Of a DNA stretch of 64,000 nucleotides, positions 3,831-39,492 are shown in pieces. A program made the position numbers and the translations under genes. The stretch's first letter is position 1; each line of letters begins with the position of its first letter. Under the pieces are notes generated by a model. That model had not been told where the DNA came from. It worked only from the letters and a program-made list of their open reading frames with translations, and did no database searches. The stretch is from Alishewanella jeotgali KCTC 22429. GTDB taxonomy: Bacteria > Pseudomonadota > Gammaproteobacteria > Enterobacterales > Alteromonadaceae. The stretch lies in assembly GCF_000245735.1 (NCBI RefSeq), contig NZ_AHTH01000023.1, forward strand, positions 1-64,000, read 5' to 3'.

Positions 3831-6470
3831 TTAGTTATTTGAAATTTCAACATTATCAATCTGATATACGGCACCCTGGCCGGTACCCCAAGCCGGGAAT
3901 ACCATCAGCACGCTGATATCACTGATATCTAAACCGGCATCAAATAAACTTTGTAGCGAGAAGCTGTAGCGTTGCCACTCACCAGTAACCGGCGCCACGC
4001 CATTGTTACCCGCACTTAGCGCCAACTCGACTGCCGTCGCTGCACCACTGGATTCAATTTTGAAGAACCAGCTGCTGTTTGGATTGGTTGGCGCAGATAC
4101 GACGCGCATATCAAAGCTGACGCTACCATTGGCCAATAAGGCACTTGCATCAAAGGCTTCACCTTCGTCAGCCAGGAAACCCAGTACGGTCTCTGGCCAA
4201 CCCAGAATTTCAAACTGCGCGACCTTGCCGTATGGCGCTCCTACATCAACTACCTTAGGTGTTGAACCGGCACAGCAGTCCCATAATTCCCAACCTGCTT
4301 TCACAGCGTCACGGAACAGCACCAACTGGTTATTGCCGGCATTAGGGTTAAAGATTTTCACTTCATTCACGCGGAATACCGCACCTTCGCCAGTACCCCA
4401 GGCAGGGAAGATCATCAGTACGTCAATAGCGCTAATGTCCAGACCCGCATCGAACAGCGATTGCAAACTAAAGGTATAAGTTGCCCACTGACCTGTAACG
4501 GGGGCCTGGCCGCCATTACCGGCACTTAGAGGTAACTCAACTGCTGAATCACCGCCTGCGGCTTCAATTTTAAACAACCAGGTTGAGGCAGGATTCGCCG
4601 GAGCGTTTACAACCTTGACGTTAAATTGCACCACACCATCGGCTAATAGTGCCGACGCATCAAACGGATTACCGCCACCTAGCGGACTTCTGTTATAGAA
4701 GCCCAGCACTGTTGGTGAAGCACCTACAGTGAATTGTGCGGCCAAACGATCGGTTTCCTCATCCAGTACTTCAATCGGGGTACTGCCACCACAACAATCC
4801 CACATTGGCCAGTCAGCGTTAGCGCCATTGTTAAAGATCACCAGTTCCGGGAACTCCGCAGGCTGAGAAATTTTCACATTAGTCACCCGGTATACCGCAC
4901 CTTCACCCGAACCCCAGGCCGGGAAAATCATCACTACATCGATTGCCGACAAATCTAAACCCGCTGCATCCAGCATACTTAGAGGGAAAGTGTAGCTTTG
5001 CCATTGCCCTGTTACCGGGGCAACACCTTCGCTGCTGGCAGTAAGCGGCAATTCAACAGCGCTAGAGTTCTCGTTACTTTCTACTTTAAATAGCCAACTG
5101 GAACCCGGATTTGCCGGGGGGCTAACCACCAACATATCAAAACTGATGCTACCTTTATCTTTTAACGGAGATGCATCAAAAGGACTGGCCACCCCGGGTG
5201 GGGTAACAAAGGCAGAGCGGCTAATAAAACCATTAACGGTAGGTGACGCACCCACGACAAACTCGTAAACATTGCCACGGCTGGCATCCTGCACTATGGC
5301 TGGAGTAGAACCACCACAGCAATCCCAGGCTGGCCAGTTTGGATTGGGTGTACCATCAAAAATGGTCAGATTCTGTGCCACTCCTGTGGAAGGCGGTACA
5401 GGAATAGGCGCTTGCCCTGTTACCAGGGTATCACTATCCAGGTAGCCAGCCCGAATAGTTTCACAACCTTTACCATTGCGGGGATTAGCCTGACATTCAT
5501 AGACACGAACCCAATCCACTTCGAAAGTCTGGCCGTTTTCAAATGCCGCAGCGTCAATGCCCAGATTATTTACGTTCTCTGGCCAGTTTCCGCCAACAGC
5601 TAAATTCAGAATCAGATAAAAACGCTGATCAAAGGGAGCTGCGTTATACTGGGTTTCAAGCTTACCGGTGGCGATATTAAAATATTCGGCGAACCAACCG
5701 CGATGGTTTAGACCGATTAACTCCCCGCGACTATTGGTGCGCACCCGGGAAGCCTGCTGGGTTTGATAAAGATAGCCATTAACATACCAACGAATTTCAC
5801 CCTCCTGCCATTCGATAGCATAGGTATTAAAGCTATCAGCAGGATTAGCTCCGTTCGGTAAAGTGTAAGACTTACCACTACTGGCATTGTTAGGCCAATC
5901 ACGTCCGTAATGCAAAGTACCGTAAACTTTAGCTTCTACATTACCTTCAGCATCAACGGTTTTAAGATTAACGGCTTCAAAAATATCGATTTCGCCTGAT
6001 TTGGGCCAACCACCATACACTTCATCAGTTGGCATCATCCAGATTGCAGGCCAAGAACCCTGGCCTGATGGGGCTTTCGCCCTAACCTCGATACGCCCGT
6101 ACTTCCAGTCCCCCTGATATCGGGTATTTAAACGTGCCGACGTGTAAGGTAAAGGGGCGCCTTCGGCCGCTGGCCTGGCAACAATTTTCAGGGTGCCATT
6201 AGAGACAAAAGCATTTTCCGGACTATCGGTATAACATTGTTTTTCCTGATTGCCGCCACCACGACAGTCAATTTCAAATGTCCATTTTCGCCGATCAATA
6301 CTATTGCCTTCGAATTCGTCACTCCAAACTAACTTCCAGTCACTGACCGGCTTAGTTGTATCTACAGCGGAAAAGTTTGAATTGGTGTTTACATCCCCGC
6401 CACAGCCACTTAGCCCCACTGCCAATAGTGCTGCGGCCAGGGGGGTTGCTGTTTTCATTTTAATGGTCAT
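3831..6470 (-). CDS. GH16 endo-beta-1,3-glucanase lipoprotein with three tandem C-terminal domains
   Basis: About 879 residues. I chose the ATG at 6470 because AGGA lies about 9 nt upstream; an earlier in-frame start exists at 6500. The signal peptide ends in a lipobox (VGLSGC, Cys23), so this is a lipoprotein. Residues about 40-325 are a GH16 domain, with WSDEF at the start, the catalytic motif EIDIFE, and NLAVGGNWP near the end, resembling the laminarinase-like subfamilies. Three repeats of about 150 residues follow. Each begins with a W(D)CC(G/A)GSTP motif, continues with VGASPTV or similar, and ends with VLMIFPAWG-G-GAV; they resemble the galactose-binding-like ExoP C-terminal domain. The role is likely extracellular beta-glucan hydrolysis feeding the downstream TonB receptor. 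Exact linkage specificity is inferred. Confidence 0.88.
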   Translation of the reverse strand: MTIKMKTATPLAAALLAVGLSGCGGDVNTNSNFSAVDTTKPVSDWKLVWSDEFEGNSIDRRKWTFEIDCRGGGNQEKQCYTDSPENAFVSNGTLKIVARPAAEGAPLPYTSARLNTRYQGDWKYGRIEVRAKAPSGQGSWPAIWMMPTDEVYGGWPKSGEIDIFEAVNLKTVDAEGNVEAKVYGTLHYGRDWPNNASSGKSYTLPNGANPADSFNTYAIEWQEGEIRWYVNGYLYQTQQASRVRTNSRGELIGLNHRGWFAEYFNIATGKLETQYNAAPFDQRFYLILNLAVGGNWPENVNNLGIDAAAFENGQTFEVDWVRVYECQANPRNGKGCETIRAGYLDSDTLVTGQAPIPVPPSTGVAQNLTIFDGTPNPNWPAWDCCGGSTPAIVQDASRGNVYEFVVGASPTVNGFISRSAFVTPPGVASPFDASPLKDKGSISFDMLVVSPPANPGSSWLFKVESNENSSAVELPLTASSEGVAPVTGQWQSYTFPLSMLDAAGLDLSAIDVVMIFPAWGSGEGAVYRVTNVKISQPAEFPELVIFNNGANADWPMWDCCGGSTPIEVLDEETDRLAAQFTVGASPTVLGFYNRSPLGGGNPFDASALLADGVVQFNVKVVNAPANPASTWLFKIEAAGGDSAVELPLSAGNGGQAPVTGQWATYTFSLQSLFDAGLDISAIDVLMIFPAWGTGEGAVFRVNEVKIFNPNAGNNQLVLFRDAVKAGWELWDCCAGSTPKVVDVGAPYGKVAQFEILGWPETVLGFLADEGEAFDASALLANGSVSFDMRVVSAPTNPNSSWFFKIESSGAATAVELALSAGNNGVAPVTGEWQRYSFSLQSLFDAGLDISDISVLMVFPAWGTGQGAVYQIDNVEISNN

Positions 6471-32018: not shown

Positions 32019-32080
32019 ATGGCCTTCGTATTTTAGTACCGCTTATTCGACAGTAACTGACTTCGCCAAATTACGCGGCT
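32019..32080. other. attTn7: target duplication and TnsD-recognition end of glmS
   Basis: ATGGC at 32019-32023 is the right copy of the target duplication, followed by the terminator arm next to glmS. The last glmS codons (NLAKSVTVE and TAA) form the region that TnsD reads in Tn7. The site is occupied in the standard orientation, right end nearest glmS. Confidence 0.85.
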
Positions 32081-33872
32081 GGTCTACGTCGGTGCCCTTG
32101 ATAATGGCCACATAGTAACTCAGTAACTGCAGTGGCAGGGTGTAGACGATGGGTGCCAGAATATCAGCCACATGCGGCACATTGATAACGCGCATGGTGG
32201 CATCTGATTTAAAGCGGGCGTTGGCATCGGCGAACACATACAGAATACCGCCGCGGGCACGCACTTCTTCCACGTTCGACTGCAACTTCTCCAGCAGATC
32301 GTTATTGGGAGCTACCACGATAATTGGCATATCGGCGTCGATCAGCGCCAGCGGGCCATGCTTTAACTCACCGGCGGCATAGGCTTCAGCGTGGATATAG
32401 GAAATTTCTTTTAGCTTTAACGCCCCTTCCATCGCGATTGGATACTGATCGCCACGACCGAGGAATAACGCATGGTGCTTGTCAGCAAACTCTTCTGCCA
32501 GGGCTTCAATCTGCGGCGCCAGCGTCAGTGTTTCTTCCAGCTTGGCTGGCAGGCTGCGCAGGGCAGCTGTTAGCTCACGCTGTTGCTCTGGCGTTAAACC
32601 GTTATATTTACCCACTGCCAACGTTAACATCGCCAGGCCCACTAACTGGGTAGTAAAGGCTTTGGTAGAGGCAACACCGATTTCGGCGCCGGCACGGGTC
32701 ATAAAGGCCAGATCCGATTCGCGCACCAGCGACGAGCCGGCAACGTTACAAATAGTCAGGCTACCCAGATAACCGGCTTCTTTCGCCAAGCGCAGTGCCG
32801 CCAGGGTGTCGGCCGTTTCACCGGATTGTGAAATGCTAACCAGCAGGCTGTTTGGCTGCACAAAGGATTTACGGTAGCGGAACTCAGAAGCAATTTCGAC
32901 ATTACAGGACACGCCAGCCAGCGCTTCCAGCCAGTAACGGGCGACCATACCCGAGTGGTAGCTGGTGCCGCAGGCGACGATTTGAATATGTTTTACTTTT
33001 TTAAACAGCTCAGCCGCGCCATTGCCAAAGGTTTCATCCAGCACACTGTCGCTGCTCAGCCGGCCTTCCAGCGTGTTATTGATTGCACTTGGCTGCTCGT
33101 AGATTTCTTTTAGCATAAAGTGGCGGTACTGGCCTTTGTCGCCGGCGTCATAGCTAACGTTCGACTCATGCACTTCGCGCTCGACCGCCTGACCGTTTTT
33201 ATCAAAAATGCTAACGCTGTGGCGGGTGATTTCCGCCACATCGCCTTCTTCTAAAAAGATAAAGCGGCGGGTAACAGGTAGCAGCGCCAGCTGATCCGAG
33301 GCGATAAAGTTTTCACCGATACCCAGACCAATCACCAGCGGGCTGCCCGAGCGGGCCACTACCACGCGGCTGGCATCGGTTTTATCCAGCAGCACAGTAC
33401 CATAAGCACCGTGTAATTGTTTTACCGCGGCCTGCACCGCAGTCAGTAATGAACTGTGGCTTTTCAGCTCTTCTTCAACCAGGTGGGCAATCACCTCGGT
33501 GTCAGTATCAGAAGTGAAGATATAGCCTTTGGCTTTTAAGGCGTCGCGTAATACGGCGTGGTTCTCGATAATACCGTTATGCACCACCGTAATATTGCTG
33601 GAAACATGCGGGTGGGCATTGCGCTCGCTTGGTTCACCGTGGGTAGCCCAGCGGGTATGAGCGATACCGGTACCACCGGGAACCGGCTGCGCGGCAACCG
33701 CATCCGCCAGCTCTTTAACCTTACCGAGGCGGCGCAATCGTTGCAGCTCACCACTGTCGTTAACTACTGCCACACCGGCAGAATCATAGCCGCGGTATTC
33801 CAGCCGGCGTAAACCCTCAACCAGAATATCCACCACATCCCGTTGCGCGACCGCGCCTACAATGCCACACAT
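32043..33872 (-). CDS. glmS: Glutamine--fructose-6-phosphate aminotransferase
   Basis: 609 residues, full length. GlmS makes glucosamine-6-phosphate from fructose-6-phosphate and glutamine, the first step to UDP-GlcNAc for peptidoglycan and LPS. The N-terminus [13 protein letters not shown] has the nucleophile Cys after the initiator Met. The glutaminase domain contains [18 protein letters not shown]. Two SIS isomerase domains follow ([43 protein letters not shown]). It ends in LAKSVTVE, as needed for TnsD recognition. It lies downstream of a DeoR-type regulator, 54 bp away. Its own terminator is split by the transposon, so 3' end formation may now depend on the transposon end. Confidence 0.97.
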
Positions 33873-33926: not shown

Positions 33927-34694
33927 TCAGGCCTGAACCCGGATCACCCTTACCCCTTGTGCTGCAATTTCAGCCGCTGCGCTTTCCGGCAAGCCGCTGT
34001 CGGTAACCAGTACCTTAACCAGTGACCAGGGCAGCTCCAGATTATGGATTTTGCGCCCCAGCTTGTCGGACTCCAGCATCACGATTACCTCACGCGCAAC
34101 CTCAGCCATCACCCGGCTTAAACTATACAGCTCGTTATAGGTAGTGGTGCCGCGCGCCAGATCGATACCATCGGCACCGATAAATAGCTGATCAAAATCG
34201 TAATTACGCAGCATTTGCTCTGCCAGCTGGCCCTGAAAGGCTTCCGATTGCGGATCCCAGGTACCGCCAGTCATCAGCAGCGTCGGTTCGTTTTCCAGCT
34301 CGCGCAGCGCATTGGCAATGGCCAGCGAGTTGGTCATTACCACCAAACCGCGTTTTTGCGCCAGCTCAGGTAACAAGGCCGCCGTGGTGCGGCCACTGTC
34401 GATAATAATCCGGTAATGATCTTTAATCAGCGCCGCCGCTGCTTTGGCAATCGCCAACTTTCGCTCTGAAACTTTTTCCAGGCTGCTATCGGAGACAAAG
34501 TCCTGTGGCACCGGCACAGCACCACCATAGCGGCGCAATAACAACCCCGCGGCCTCTAATGCCGTTAAGTCTTTACGAATCGTCACTTCGGAGGTTTGAA
34601 ATTGCTCGGCTAACTGCTCAACAGTCACTTCGCCCTGTTGTTGCAGGCGGGCGACGATCAGATGGCGGCGTTGTTGGGTATTACGCTTATTCAT
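33927..34694 (-). CDS. DeoR-family transcription regulator upstream of glmS
   Basis: 255 residues. An N-terminal DeoR helix-turn-helix (RRHLIVARLQQQGEVTVEQLAEQFQTSEVTIRKDLTALE, positions about 8-46) is followed by the sugar-phosphate-sensing DeoRC domain (IIIDSGRTTAALLPEL, MTGGTW, FIGADGID). Same strand as glmS with 54 bp between, so it probably controls amino-sugar supply and may autoregulate. Other gammaproteobacteria have similar DeoR genes beside glmS, but the effector here is only inferred. A Fur box and a divergent RNA promoter lie about 75 bp upstream. Confidence 0.88.
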   Translation of the reverse strand: MNKRNTQQRRHLIVARLQQQGEVTVEQLAEQFQTSEVTIRKDLTALEAAGLLLRRYGGAVPVPQDFVSDSSLEKVSERKLAIAKAAAALIKDHYRIIIDSGRTTAALLPELAQKRGLVVMTNSLAIANALRELENEPTLLMTGGTWDPQSEAFQGQLAEQMLRNYDFDQLFIGADGIDLARGTTTYNELYSLSRVMAEVAREVIVMLESDKLGRKIHNLELPWSLVKVLVTDSGLPESAAAEIAAQGVRVIRVQA

Positions 34695-34770: not shown

Positions 34771-34814
34771 ATTAATGATAATCATTTGCATTAACACAAA
34801 AGGAGCGCTATAGT
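34771..34814 (+). promoter_or_regulatory. Fur box overlapping a sigma-70 promoter
   Basis: 34771-34789 matches the 19-bp Fur consensus at 15 positions, with an unbroken core AATGATAATCATT. It overlaps the -35 element TTGCAT (34786-34791), which is 17 bp from the -10 element TATAGT (34809-34814). The arrangement would give iron-dependent repression of a plus-strand transcript starting near 34821. Confidence 0.75.
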
Positions 34815-34820
34815 ATCAAC

Positions 34821-34916
34821 GTCGACGGAATGAGAGGGCTTAGCCTGAATACGGATGTTCTGGTCGTTGTGAAATTTGTCCTGCATTGACGGGGAGCCCA
34901 GGCTCCCCGATTTTTT
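34821..34916 (+). ncRNA. Candidate Fur-regulated small RNA
   Basis: About 96 nt between the predicted start site and an intrinsic terminator, with no annotated gene. The promoter overlaps a strong Fur box, as for RyhB-type sRNAs. The sequence lacks the RyhB core that I know, so it would be a different family or a diverged one. A 19-codon reading frame (ATG at 34830, ending TGA before the hairpin) is present with only a weak ribosome site, so a small protein or dual-function RNA cannot be excluded. The 3' end overlaps the stop codon of the convergent kinase gene. Confidence 0.6.
34890..34916 (+). terminator. Intrinsic terminator of the candidate sRNA
   Basis: Stem CGGGGAGCC/GGCTCCCCG followed by A and six T on the plus strand. 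On the minus strand no T-run follows, so it does not serve the kinase gene. It can only end a plus-strand transcript. Confidence 0.85.
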
Positions 34917-37900
34917 ACGTTACCTGCTTAGTTAAACGCAATAAATAATGTAAACCTTGCATAGGTTGGCTACTAACTGAGATTGTACCATGTAATCTTA
35001 CTGTAACCAGGTTATAGACGATATGCGCTCCCAAACCACTACCACCCTGATTTCTTTTAGTAGTAAAGAAAGGATCAAAAAGCTGCTTCAGCTCCTCATC
35101 TGTCATGCCTTTGCCGTTATCACTAAAATGAATTAGAACCTCACTGGCTGTATCTTCCACTAGCAGCCGAATCTTAGGTGCGGGATGCCCGTCAAGGCCA
35201 TGAATTAACGCATTCATCACCAAATTAGTTACCACTTGCGCTATAGCACCAGGATCGGAATACATTATGATTGGCTGGGGACAATCAAAAGTTAGCTCGC
35301 AATGTTGTTGTTTGAGTCGCGAGCGCAACGACAGCAACACATCATTAAGATACTGGCAAAGTTCGAATTCACGATAGCTGTCGTGGCTTTGATCAACAGA
35401 TACCTGCTTAAAACTGTTTACCAAATCTGCAGCTCGCTGCGTATTAACCTGCAGTATTTTTAAACCATCACTAAGTTGTTGCATAAAGCGGTTGAACTGG
35501 CTTTGTAGCATCGTTCGGTTTGCAGCAGCCTCGGCAAGCTGTGCCTGCTCATTTTGTAAGTGGCTGGTTGCGGTAACGCAAATACCTAGCGGCGTATTGA
35601 TCTCATGAGCCACCCCCGCCACCAGGCCACCCAAAGAAGCCATTTTTTCCTGAGTAATCAATTGCTGCTGTGTTTGTTGCAAGCGCTGATAGGATAGCTC
35701 CAAGGCCTGATTTTGTTCAGCAAGCTGCGCGGTTCTTTTTTCTACTAACAGCTCTAGTTTTCGTCGTAATTGATATTCTCGCTGCAAACGCCAACGTAGC
35801 ACTACCATCACAGTTAACAGCAATAGCAAAAAGAGGATGAGCTTGAACCACCAGGTCAACCACCAGGGCGGTAAAACACGCACCGATAATTCAGTGTCCG
35901 TAGTCCATTGTCCATCCGGTAAGCGAGCCGCAACCTTGAACAAGTAATCGCCTGGTGGTAAACGGGTATAGGTTGCAACCGGACTTTGTGCCGACGTTTG
36001 AATCCAATCACGGTCAAAGCCTTTTAGTTGATAACGATATTGAATTTGCTGTGCTTGTTTATATTCAGGTGAGGCGAAACGAATGCTAAACATATCCTGA
36101 TCATAGGTCAGTACCAACTGTTCAAGATTGGCCAAGGTCTGTGGTAATAACGCCGAACCAGCCCGGACGGGTTGATTAAACAATGAAAGCGCAGTTAACT
36201 GCACCTGATTCAATGCAACTCGCTTGGGTAACTTATTGATATCAAAATAATCAAAACCTCGGGCCCCGCCACGATAAATTGTAGTACCTAAAATATCCCA
36301 GGCACCAATCCAGGTACTGCTCTGCATTCCATGCATTTCGTTCAGCTCGAGGTAAGTTTGTTGCTCCTCTAACCAATGTAGTCGGTAAAGCAAGCGAAAA
36401 AAGGGCGCTTGCTGTAATGCAGTATCATAATCATCAAGCGTTAAATAGGGTTTAAAGCCTCTAACCAGCGCGGGCTGATCTGGATCTCGTAAGACCAAAT
36501 GATTAATATTCCCTGCTCGAATCCACAGCCGTTGGGATTGATCTTCCAACATCAGTTGAATACCGTTCAGTTGCAACCCATGCTGACTGCCGGCATGCTG
36601 TAGCCAATACTCAACCTCTCCTGTTTCAGGTTGGTAACGAGCAACTCCCTGATCTGTCGAACCTATCCAGATAGCTCCGAGATAGTCTTCCGTCACATTA
36701 TTGATATCTTCAAAGCGGATTTGTTCCCTCCCGTCAGCCCGGCGATAATGCTCCAGTTGGGTGCGGTCAGGAGCTAAACGGAATAAGCCGTGCCCTCGAG
36801 TCCCAATCCACAAGTTTTGTTGCCGATCCCGATACAATAGTCTGACAAATGGCTCTGCCGCTGGATACAGACTGATATTTTGCCATTCCGATGTGGCAGG
36901 AACTAAACGATACAATCCGCGATCAGTACCAACATAGAGAGTGCCGTCATTATCCTGGTGTACCGCTTGTACTAGTGTTGGCTGCTCTGGGCCGTCAGGT
37001 AGCAGCCAATACTTTAATATGGCTGTTTGAGGATCAAAATGGGCAACGCCACCCTCTCGGTTAGCTAACCAGATACTGTTTTCAGCGACCGCATCAATAC
37101 CCAATACATTGGGTGCGGCCAGTAAACCGCTGCCAGTTTGGCCATTAGGTAAGGTTCGGATCGCTCTGGCAAAACGACTCAGCCCCCGAAAACCACCCTG
37201 ACTGACTGTCCACAAAATACCTTGTTGATCCTGAAATAGCGCCAATAAATCAGCTCGGGCCAACCCCTCGCTGAATTCAGCTTGAAAAGGATAGTGCACC
37301 CAATTACCTTGCTGATCGCGATGCCATAAGCCACCGCGGTGGTCAGCACTGTAGCTAGTAAGCCAAAGCCCTCCTTCGGCATCAAAATGCAAATCAGACA
37401 GCAATGCTTGTTTTAACGGTTCTGGTTGCCTGGCAAGTTGGAAAATTTGTTGTTCAGTATCAAACAGGTAAAGCCCCTGACCATAGGTTGCGGCCCAAAC
37501 CGTTCCATCGAGACTCTGATTGATTTTACTGACGGATGCCCTGACTGGCGCATCGCTGGCAAAGCCAACCTCCTGCCAATCACTTTGTTCATTCGCACGA
37601 TACAAGGCACCACCACGTTGCTGCCCATAAGTACGGAGTGGTGCTTCACCAATCGCTAGCCATTGGCCACCACTGGTATCAATAAATAAACTGTTAATGA
37701 ATTTAACAGCCAGTTCGCTGTAAATCGTTGGTAGTGTGACAGGTTGCAGTTGCTCATGCTGCCATTTAAACAAACCTGCACCGTAAGAAGTAATCCATAA
37801 TTGCTGCGACTGATCGAACACCAGTGCACTAATTTCAGCCGAAGACACGTCCTCAGGCCCAGGTAACTCAAAGCGAACGAAGGACTCAGTTACTGGATCA

Positions 37901-38226
37901 AAACGATTTAAACCGCCGTAACGGGTACCTACCCATAACCACCCCTGAGGATCTGACGCTAACGCAGACACCCAACCAGCTGACAAGCTACCGCTCTGAC
38001 CAGGATTGGCTCTAAATTCCTGTAAATCAGTGCCATCATAACGATAAAGGCCATGTTGGGTGCCTAACCATAAGAAACCTTGTTGGTCTTGGGTCATGGT
38101 GGTGGGAACAGGCAAAGAACGGCCAGGGACACTGAGCTGAATAAAACGGCTGAATACCCGGCTGTGTTCAATAGACTCCTGGCTTACGGCCCGCAAAGGC
38201 AGGGCAACGTAAACCAATAACATCAT
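34915..38226 (-). CDS. Beta-propeller two-component sensor histidine kinase
   Basis: 1,103 residues in the visible frame. Reg_prop repeats (GFLWLGTQHGLYRYDG, GWLWVGTRYGGLNRF and more) form a periplasmic beta-propeller over about 45-620. A Y_Y_Y-type domain (YRYQLKGFDRDWIQTS ... RLPPGDYLFKV) and one membrane helix (about 795-815) follow. After a coiled coil comes the dimerisation/phosphoacceptor region ASLGGLVAGVAHEINTPLG and an ATPase domain (VTNLVMNALIHG, DNGKGM, GGSGLGAHIV). There is no receiver domain, so a separate regulator is expected elsewhere. An ISAs1 element sits 24 bp before the ATG. The open frame continues through the restored sequence to a possible GTG at 39511, so the native N-terminus is uncertain. 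Confidence 0.88.
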   Translation of the reverse strand: MMLLVYVALPLRAVSQESIEHSRVFSRFIQLSVPGRSLPVPTTMTQDQQGFLWLGTQHGLYRYDGTDLQEFRANPGQSGSLSAGWVSALASDPQGWLWVGTRYGGLNRFDPVTESFVRFELPGPEDVSSAEISALVFDQSQQLWITSYGAGLFKWQHEQLQPVTLPTIYSELAVKFINSLFIDTSGGQWLAIGEAPLRTYGQQRGGALYRANEQSDWQEVGFASDAPVRASVSKINQSLDGTVWAATYGQGLYLFDTEQQIFQLARQPEPLKQALLSDLHFDAEGGLWLTSYSADHRGGLWHRDQQGNWVHYPFQAEFSEGLARADLLALFQDQQGILWTVSQGGFRGLSRFARAIRTLPNGQTGSGLLAAPNVLGIDAVAENSIWLANREGGVAHFDPQTAILKYWLLPDGPEQPTLVQAVHQDNDGTLYVGTDRGLYRLVPATSEWQNISLYPAAEPFVRLLYRDRQQNLWIGTRGHGLFRLAPDRTQLEHYRRADGREQIRFEDINNVTEDYLGAIWIGSTDQGVARYQPETGEVEYWLQHAGSQHGLQLNGIQLMLEDQSQRLWIRAGNINHLVLRDPDQPALVRGFKPYLTLDDYDTALQQAPFFRLLYRLHWLEEQQTYLELNEMHGMQSSTWIGAWDILGTTIYRGGARGFDYFDINKLPKRVALNQVQLTALSLFNQPVRAGSALLPQTLANLEQLVLTYDQDMFSIRFASPEYKQAQQIQYRYQLKGFDRDWIQTSAQSPVATYTRLPPGDYLFKVAARLPDGQWTTDTELSVRVLPPWWLTWWFKLILFLLLLLTVMVVLRWRLQREYQLRRKLELLVEKRTAQLAEQNQALELSYQRLQQTQQQLITQEKMASLGGLVAGVAHEINTPLGICVTATSHLQNEQAQLAEAAANRTMLQSQFNRFMQQLSDGLKILQVNTQRAADLVNSFKQVSVDQSHDSYREFELCQYLNDVLLSLRSRLKQQHCELTFDCPQPIIMYSDPGAIAQVVTNLVMNALIHGLDGHPAPKIRLLVEDTASEVLIHFSDNGKGMTDEELKQLFDPFFTTKRNQGGSGLGAHIVYNLVTVRLHGTISVSSQPMQGLHYLLRLTKQVT

Positions 38227-38250: not shown

Positions 38251-39492
38251 CAGGGCGAGATCGCGAACGTTTTTTAAACAATAAACGATCAGTTTGACGA
38301 TCTGATCTAGTTGTGATCATATACTCCTTTTTTGGGAGCATGCCATGTACCTTGAACTCTTTACTACACACTTTGACACCATCATCGACAACCGTCAGTC
38401 TGCAAAAGTTACCTATCCTTTATCTGATGTTTTATTCGTGACCTTATGTGGCGTGATTGCAGGCGCAGAGGGATGGTCGGAGATCCATGATTATGCTAAA
38501 GGTCATCACGAGTGGTTTCAGAAACAAGGTTTTTTAAGTGATGGCGTCCCGGTAGATGACACGATAGCGCGTATTATTTCCAAAATTGCTCCGGAACAAT
38601 TCAGGCAATGTTTTATCGACTGGATGCAAGCGGTGCACAAGCTAACGCAGGGAGAAGTGATTGCCATAGATGGCAAAACGCTACGTAGCTCTTATGCACC
38701 AGAAGACAGAAAATCGACCATCCATATGGTGAACGCCTTTGCTTGTGCGAACAAAGTGGTGTTGGGGCAGCTGAAGACCGTGGAAAAATCGAATGAAATC
38801 ACAGCCATCCCAGAGCTGATTCGATTGCTGGATATTGAAGGCGCCCTGGTTTCAATAGATGCGATGGGATGTCAAACGGCGATAGCAGAGCAAGTGATAG
38901 AGGGGAATGGGGATTATCTGTTGGCGCTTAAGGCAAACCAGGGAACGTTATACAACGCAGTAGAAGCGTTATTTGCCGGGCAACGAAGTCGCCCTCTTGA
39001 TGGGATTGTCATAGAAAAGAACCGAGGCCGAATAGAAGCAAGAAGTTACCATGTAAAAGACGCCAGCGAACTGAAGGGAAACTTTAGTAAATGGGTTGGT
39101 CTGCAAACCGTTGGAATGAATCTAAGTTACCGGGAAGTAAAAGGAAAAAAATCGGAACTCACTTATCGTTACTACATCAGTTCAGCCAAGCTGAACGAAG
39201 TACAGTTAGCCGAGGCGGTTAGAGCTCATTGGGCCGTTGAAAATAGCCTACATTGGGTGCTGGATGTCAGCATGAAAGAAGATGCTTGCCAGATTTATCA
39301 GAATCACGCGGCGGAAAACTGGTCAATACTACGGCAATGGTCTTTAAATATGCTAAGAGCAGAGCCATCGAAAGGCAGCATCCCCGCAAAACAAAAACGT
39401 GCCTGGATGAAAACGGATTATTTGGAAGATGTCTTAAAAGCTGGTTTCAGCAGCAGAGTGTTTGAAAATTAAACACTCATGCGGGAGCCCTG
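38251..39492 (+). mobile_element. Complete ISAs1-family insertion sequence
   Basis: 1,242 bp beginning CAGGGCGAGA and ending GGAGCCCTG, giving short terminal inverted repeats with core CAGGGC. It is flanked by TAACAACCGA on both sides and carries a single intact transposase gene. It inserted between the promoter region and the coding region of the sensor kinase. Confidence 0.9.
38345..39472 (+). CDS. ISAs1-family transposase
   Basis: 375 residues, full length for the family. The catalytic Asp sits in EVIAIDGKTLRSSY, the second in LVSIDAMGCQTAI and the Glu in AVENSLHWVLDVSMKED. The N-terminus (LSDVLFVTLCGVIAGAEGWSEI) is the DDE_Tnp_ISAs1 helper region. No frameshift, so it may be active. It is encoded opposite to the kinase gene that it displaced. 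Confidence 0.93.
   Translation: MYLELFTTHFDTIIDNRQSAKVTYPLSDVLFVTLCGVIAGAEGWSEIHDYAKGHHEWFQKQGFLSDGVPVDDTIARIISKIAPEQFRQCFIDWMQAVHKLTQGEVIAIDGKTLRSSYAPEDRKSTIHMVNAFACANKVVLGQLKTVEKSNEITAIPELIRLLDIEGALVSIDAMGCQTAIAEQVIEGNGDYLLALKANQGTLYNAVEALFAGQRSRPLDGIVIEKNRGRIEARSYHVKDASELKGNFSKWVGLQTVGMNLSYREVKGKKSELTYRYYISSAKLNEVQLAEAVRAHWAVENSLHWVLDVSMKEDACQIYQNHAAENWSILRQWSLNMLRAEPSKGSIPAKQKRAWMKTDYLEDVLKAGFSSRVFEN

Follow-up and report, generated by a model that had tools for sequence, protein, structure and literature searches.

Relation to known iron-responsive sRNAs

RyhB is transcribed from a Fur-box promoter as an RNA of about 90-100 nt that ends at a terminator. PrrF1 and PrrF2 of Pseudomonas are Fur-controlled and encoded in tandem. 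E. coli RyhB binds the ribosome-binding site of acnB and is able to block translation initiation (PMC4150767). BrrF is reported to resemble no known Fur-regulated sRNA in sequence and to have no Fur box directly upstream (PMC7377471).

We analysed a stretch of 64,000 nt from Alishewanella jeotgali KCTC 22429 (contig NZ_AHTH01000023.1, positions 1 to 64,000; hereafter the window). A preliminary description had proposed a candidate iron-regulated sRNA in this stretch, a reading supported by our sequence comparisons. We consider it about 85% probable that the locus encodes a Fur-repressed, trans-acting, iron-sparing sRNA that would pair with the leaders of iron-enzyme mRNAs, chiefly acnB and sodB. 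Its features are given below; the genus denotes Rheinheimera sensu lato, including Alishewanella and Arsukibacterium.

34771-34789, + strand: Fur-box-like operator ATTAATGATAATCATTTGC, 15/19, overlapping the -35 hexamer; a similar box in most relatives
34786-34791, + strand: -35 hexamer TTGCAT; TTTGCAT in 30 of 31 family stretches whose upstream sequence is complete
34809-34814, + strand: -10 hexamer TATAGT after a 17-nt spacer; TATAGT or TATACT in 25 of these 31 stretches
34821-34916, + strand: predicted sRNA copy 1, about 96 nt, start placed from the -10 hexamer; 82.9 bits with covariance model R2, this copy itself being among the sequences used to build R2
34860-34870, + strand: core block 1 CTGGTCGTTGT, predicted acnB seed; complement present in acnB leaders
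34877-34885, + strand: core block 2 TGTCCTGCA, also predicted to pair, with acnB and sodB leaders
34890-34916, + strand: intrinsic terminator; stem 34890-34909 of 8 pairs (7 G-C), one A, then the T-run TTTTTT (34911-34916), present only on the + strand; relatives retain the stem, with double changes
34830-34889, + strand: 19-codon frame with ATG start; not conserved, probably not coding

The predicted sRNA resembles RyhB in its size and its terminator and has a Fur-like box over its -35 hexamer, and pairing is predicted here at the acnB and sodB start regions; it differs in its core and gives no match to the RyhB covariance model. With PrrF1 and PrrF2 it shares the putative Fur control and, in the Alishewanella clade, the presence of two copies, but these stand on separate contigs rather than in tandem, and no Rfam match was obtained. 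NrrF, HrrF and BrrF are likewise lineage-specific iron-responsive sRNAs, but of other lineages. Since RyhB binds the acnB ribosome-binding site (PMC4150767), the regulatory logic would be the same as that of RyhB, while the sequence is unrelated. The sRNA described here has a Fur-like box directly upstream, which BrrF is reported to lack (PMC7377471).

No Rfam family matched at gathering or loose thresholds, and only chance-level matches were obtained (E ≤ 10 for the window, E ≤ 1 for five loci bearing copies). The RyhB model (RF00057) and the PrrF and NrrF models had no match in the window or the five loci. When genomes were scanned for RyhB with stricter filters, 69 candidates being scored per genome and the E. 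coli positive control being detected, the cut-off was exceeded in none of 31 genus genomes, none of 36 same-family genomes and 5 of 24 genomes outside the family. The remark in the preliminary description that no RyhB core is visible was thus borne out. In the literature on sRNAs of Rheinheimera, Alishewanella, Arsukibacterium and Alkalimonas, on RyhB in Alteromonadales and on RyhB-like RNAs (titles and abstract openings), no such RNA appeared among the matches listed. The best reading is that the sRNA represents an undescribed family of a known functional kind, which would be RyhB-like in action and unrelated in sequence.

Promoter, Fur box and terminator in the window

The consensus GATAATGATAATCATTATC was used for scoring Fur boxes. 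In the consensus orientation, the 64 kb contain two sites of at least 15/19, where a first-order Markov model predicts 0.07; the second, at 5765, is intragenic. The consensus is not a perfect palindrome, and in the reverse orientation the sole site scoring 15, at 34777, lies within the same box. No site of at least 16/19 was found on either strand of the window. A pattern scan placed the promoter register one base earlier (9/12).

The surrounding 2 kb contained a modest excess of promoter-like sites (5 against 2.7 expected) and of terminator-like sites (6 against 2.2), and the sRNA folded no better than its own shuffles (z -0.98). Promoter and terminator patterns and the fold alone being weak, we judge the unit real because it is conserved.

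The structural description given previously holds at its coordinates: the 15/19 Fur box overlapping TTGCAT-17-TATAGT, and a terminator with six T, with a T-run on the plus strand only, ending about 96 nt past the predicted start. The statement that a plus-strand RNA must be made was too strong; transcription is what these signals would predict.

A DeoR-type regulator gene lies divergently at 33927-34694, and the adjoining gene at 32043-33872 reads by eye as glmS. On the opposite strand, a propeller histidine kinase gene (34915-38226) ends inside the T-run of the sRNA at 34915. It is adjoined by a gene at 38345-39472 (+) that by eye has the look of an insertion-sequence transposase.

Conservation of the sRNA unit

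A DNA search of 60 relatives recovered the unit in genus genomes. A first covariance model, R1, was dropped because the terminator came out wrongly in the RNAalifold consensus, with 4 pairs; R2 was built with a hand-set 8-bp stem, and three rows from second copies that are one column off in its terminator helix were kept. With R2, copy 1 was recovered from 29 of the 31 genus genomes, at E values up to 1.1e-12. It was not found in G008 and G022, by loss or because of an assembly gap.

Among 246 family genomes (16 candidates scored per genome), R2 gave strong matches of at least 53 bits in 11 genomes of the 12 drawn from the genus and also in five from Alkalimonas, the latter being a count of genomes matched and not a fraction of those drawn; nothing above 27 bits was found beyond the genus and Alkalimonas. 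The match in one Alkalimonas genome (G205) came in two pieces, at contig ends. Among 394 order genomes (10 candidates scored per genome), there was no strong match outside the genus and none above 27 bits. We examined 23 mostly weak R2 matches by eye; three were real copies (L172-L174) and 20 belonged to coding sequence or to the terminators of other genes. One of the three, L173 (G020:C1:253500-257500, in a 3.1-Mb genome), is a copy 1 without a good Fur box and with block 1 partly gone, possibly a case of natural decay.

A search for the core pattern over named genomes gave 53 stretches, 32 from Rheinheimera, Alishewanella, Arsukibacterium, Alkalimonas and two gammaproteobacterial MAGs and 21 unrelated; the grouping was by organism, except for the two MAGs, which were grouped by their unit. 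Among the 31 family stretches whose upstream sequence is complete, 28 combine a Fur score of 12 or more with TTTGCAT and a T-run; none of the 21 others does, although three of them reach such a Fur score and two have a T-run. Contig ends truncate the family stretches L056 and L062, and L042 and L057 have weaker Fur boxes.

Alignment of 28 distinct copies gave CTGGTC(G/T)TTGT, a spacer of 4, 5 or 6 nt, (C/T)GTC(C/T)TGCA and then the terminator; the invariance of the core is partly a matter of selection, because the rows were picked by a pattern that demands it. Block 1 was exact in 27 of the 29 genus copies (not G020 and G021) and YGTCYTGCA fitted block 2 in 28 (not G018), these counts being from copies found by a model itself built on the 28-row alignment. 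In the terminator stem, 87.9% of cells were paired and 27 double-change cells were present against 8.6 in shuffles; none of 500 shuffles reached either value. Two of five covariation measures were not above shuffles, namely double-change pairs (379/500) and further pair types (85/500).

The preliminary description had named missing conservation of promoter and hairpin in close relatives as one finding that would speak against it, and had suggested a covariance search in related genera. Both elements proved to be conserved in the genus and in Alkalimonas, and the search returned the 29 genus and five Alkalimonas genomes. The unit has its own Fur-like box and promoter and an intrinsic terminator, and is conserved without a reading frame, as expected of this functional class.

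The locus could in principle be a short mRNA for a 19-residue peptide, and a frame of that size with an ATG start does exist at 34830-34889, as noted earlier. The frame is not conserved: an ORF covers the core in this frame in only 3 of the 28 distinct copies, and the reading frame is broken because the inter-block spacer is 4, 5 or 6 nt. We find such a peptide scarcely credible.

Genes flanking copy 1 in relatives

The neighbourhood was compared for 33 copies of copy 1, 29 from the genus and four from Alkalimonas. The divergent DeoR gene was recognised by its N-terminal motif in 17 of them and not found in 16. Thus, the Fur box travels with the sRNA and not with DeoR. Control of DeoR and glmS by the box was rejected, since the box accompanies the sRNA where DeoR is not found. 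The placement beside the glmS regulator, emphasised in the preliminary description, is correct for the window and incidental to the family.

A same-strand ORF begins 9-20 nt past the 3' end of the model in 18 of the 33 copies. Three such downstream genes, from a genus MAG, Arsukibacterium ikkense and Alkalimonas, were scanned, and all carry flavodoxin and NAD-binding domains; one resembles CysJ below the cut-off. This arrangement would suit a Fur-controlled 5' leader or attenuator acting in cis on a flavodoxin/CysJ-like reductase gene. However, for the other 15 copies, including that in the window, no ORF of 150 aa or longer lies within 120 nt on the same strand, yet the model match and mostly the box and promoter are kept, and the conserved core matches acnB and sodB leaders. 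We therefore regard a mainly cis-acting leader as improbable and retain the trans-acting sRNA.

The flavodoxin/CysJ-like reductase genes, whose products are possibly iron or siderophore reductases, lie immediately after the sRNA at L037:1184-2980, at L047:2454-4262 and in L048 behind 1813, all on the + strand.

Predicted pairing with acnB

Core block 1 (CUGGUCGUUGU) has its complement in the sequence AACGACC, which adjoins the Shine-Dalgarno sequence of acnB, the gene for the iron-sulfur aconitase B. In acnB leaders this heptamer, mostly as CAACGACC, stands immediately 5' of the Shine-Dalgarno sequence, usually AGAGGA. Of 31 genus leaders, 29 match it exactly; in G006 and in G019 a single C is replaced by T, and pairing is kept there as G-U. 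All four Alkalimonas acnB leaders contained it exactly, the rest of the leader having diverged with CAACGACCAAGAGGA kept; no acnB match was obtained in the Alkalimonas genome G205. The site was absent from all 24 acnB leaders outside both genera in the same family or order, among them G060 and G074, which have a more distant type of acnB. Sequence comparison thus establishes a conserved unit of box, promoter, core and terminator, conserved complementary sites and a matching distribution of the sRNA and the acnB site.

In the window's genome (G000), acnB had the strongest predicted duplex among 64 genes, at -30.7 kcal/mol against a mean of -18.0 (sd 3.6); ranks 2 and 3 were two unrelated window genes. 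These duplex energies and those below ignore accessibility. Across 29 genomes, which are related to one another, acnB beat all 218 pooled background leaders in 24. Outside these, acnB reached -31.9 kcal/mol in G017 and G027 with properly bounded cores and stood at 2.8% and 0.5% of background in G005 and G025, and G020 failed. At most one of 200 shuffled cores did as well in 24 of 33 genomes. The G020 copy, without GGUC and a good Fur box, has lost the predicted acnB pairing and retained that with sodB. Folding of the RNA on its own left part of the seed paired (mean unpaired 0.31-0.54 over five copies). Exchanging the sRNA and acnB partners across clades shifted the energy by about 1-3 kcal/mol, not always in favour of the cognate pair.

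The pattern AACGACC..AGGA..RTG was not enriched genome-wide: nine genomes yielded 20 matches to it and 36 to the reversed pattern used as control. Seven of the 20 were acnB, one was katG (G019), two were the sRNA gene read backwards and the others lay elsewhere; in G000, acnB was one of two matches. The recurrence of acnB is the only result of this search that supports the putative AACGACC site.

The acnB match might instead be a leader motif shared by these genera, the iron-regulated sRNA having other targets or another mode of action. The genomes are related, and the motif is kept in G008 and G022, where the sRNA was not detected. Against this, the Alkalimonas acnB leader has diverged except for CAACGACCAAGAGGA, the changes in G006 and G019 preserve G-U pairs, and sodB matches both blocks. 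We give the shared-motif explanation little credence and prefer pairing of the sRNA with acnB. Across the genomes examined, the sRNA and the acnB site are confined to almost the same small set, which makes the pairing open to a test by matched changes in a reporter.

Predicted pairing with sodB, katG and sdhC

Leaders of the Fe-SOD gene sodB, compared within the genus, are predicted to pair through both blocks, with a median background percentile of 1.8% and a median shuffle z of -3.06; at most one shuffled core was as good in 17 of 29 genomes. Pairing with katG and sdhC was near background across the genus, with at most one shuffle as good in 1 of 26 and 1 of 28 genomes, respectively. Both had been attractive by eye and were rejected as targets on this result. 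Thus, complementarity beyond background was found at the acnB and sodB start regions and not at those of katG and sdhC. Exact CAACGACC lies by the katG Shine-Dalgarno sequence in at least G012, G019, G021 and G023 of 28 genomes.

Besides the gene for the FELP..K Fe-SOD there is a second, different SOD gene with a Fur-box-like site a short distance upstream of its start codon, for example in G002, G003, G007, G014, G015, G017 and G027. This site suggests a low-iron swap of SODs alongside putative repression of sodB by the sRNA.

Proposed mode of action

The conserved Fur-like box points to iron control of the sRNA. Under iron sufficiency, Fe-Fur bound to the box over the -35 hexamer would block transcription of the sRNA. 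When iron is scarce, the RNA of about 96 nt would be transcribed and end at its own terminator. Block 1 would pair with AACGACC next to the acnB Shine-Dalgarno sequence, block 2 assisting, and both blocks would pair with the sodB leader. Ribosome initiation on the paired leaders would be blocked, and iron would be spared. Dependence on Hfq is assumed. Fur binding, transcription, Hfq dependence and repression are here inferred steps.

A fuller account is possible, although we put it somewhat below even odds. One branch of the family may rely on an undescribed sRNA family in place of RyhB. Alkalimonas and many Rheinheimera would have it as the terminator-ended leader of the flavodoxin reductase gene, so that a single Fur-controlled unit would give rise to the iron-sparing RNA and, through read-through, to an enzyme that may reduce iron. 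In Alishewanella, the sRNA would be uncoupled from the reductase gene and duplicated beside ferritin-family genes. The grip on acnB and sodB would be through two short blocks set apart by a variable spacer.

An iron-sparing sRNA of the kind proposed would fill this role in environmental bacteria in which RyhB was not detected, and would be a further case of unrelated RNAs converging on acnB and sodB.

Second copy of the sRNA

A diverged second copy lies elsewhere in the window's genome, on another contig (G000:C48:4870-4962, 67.6 bits). R2 detected second copies in G000, G003, G005 and G023, and a diverged one in G011, missed by R2, was found by DNA search. The duplex of the G000 second copy with acnB ranked 2 of 64, behind an unrelated gene, and pairing with acnB is therefore not claimed for it. 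Two ferritin-family genes and a ZIP transporter gene follow this copy, as does a 200-aa ORF directly behind it (L031:4979-5581, +), which had no Pfam or NCBIfam match. One of the ferritin-family genes matches bacterioferritin.
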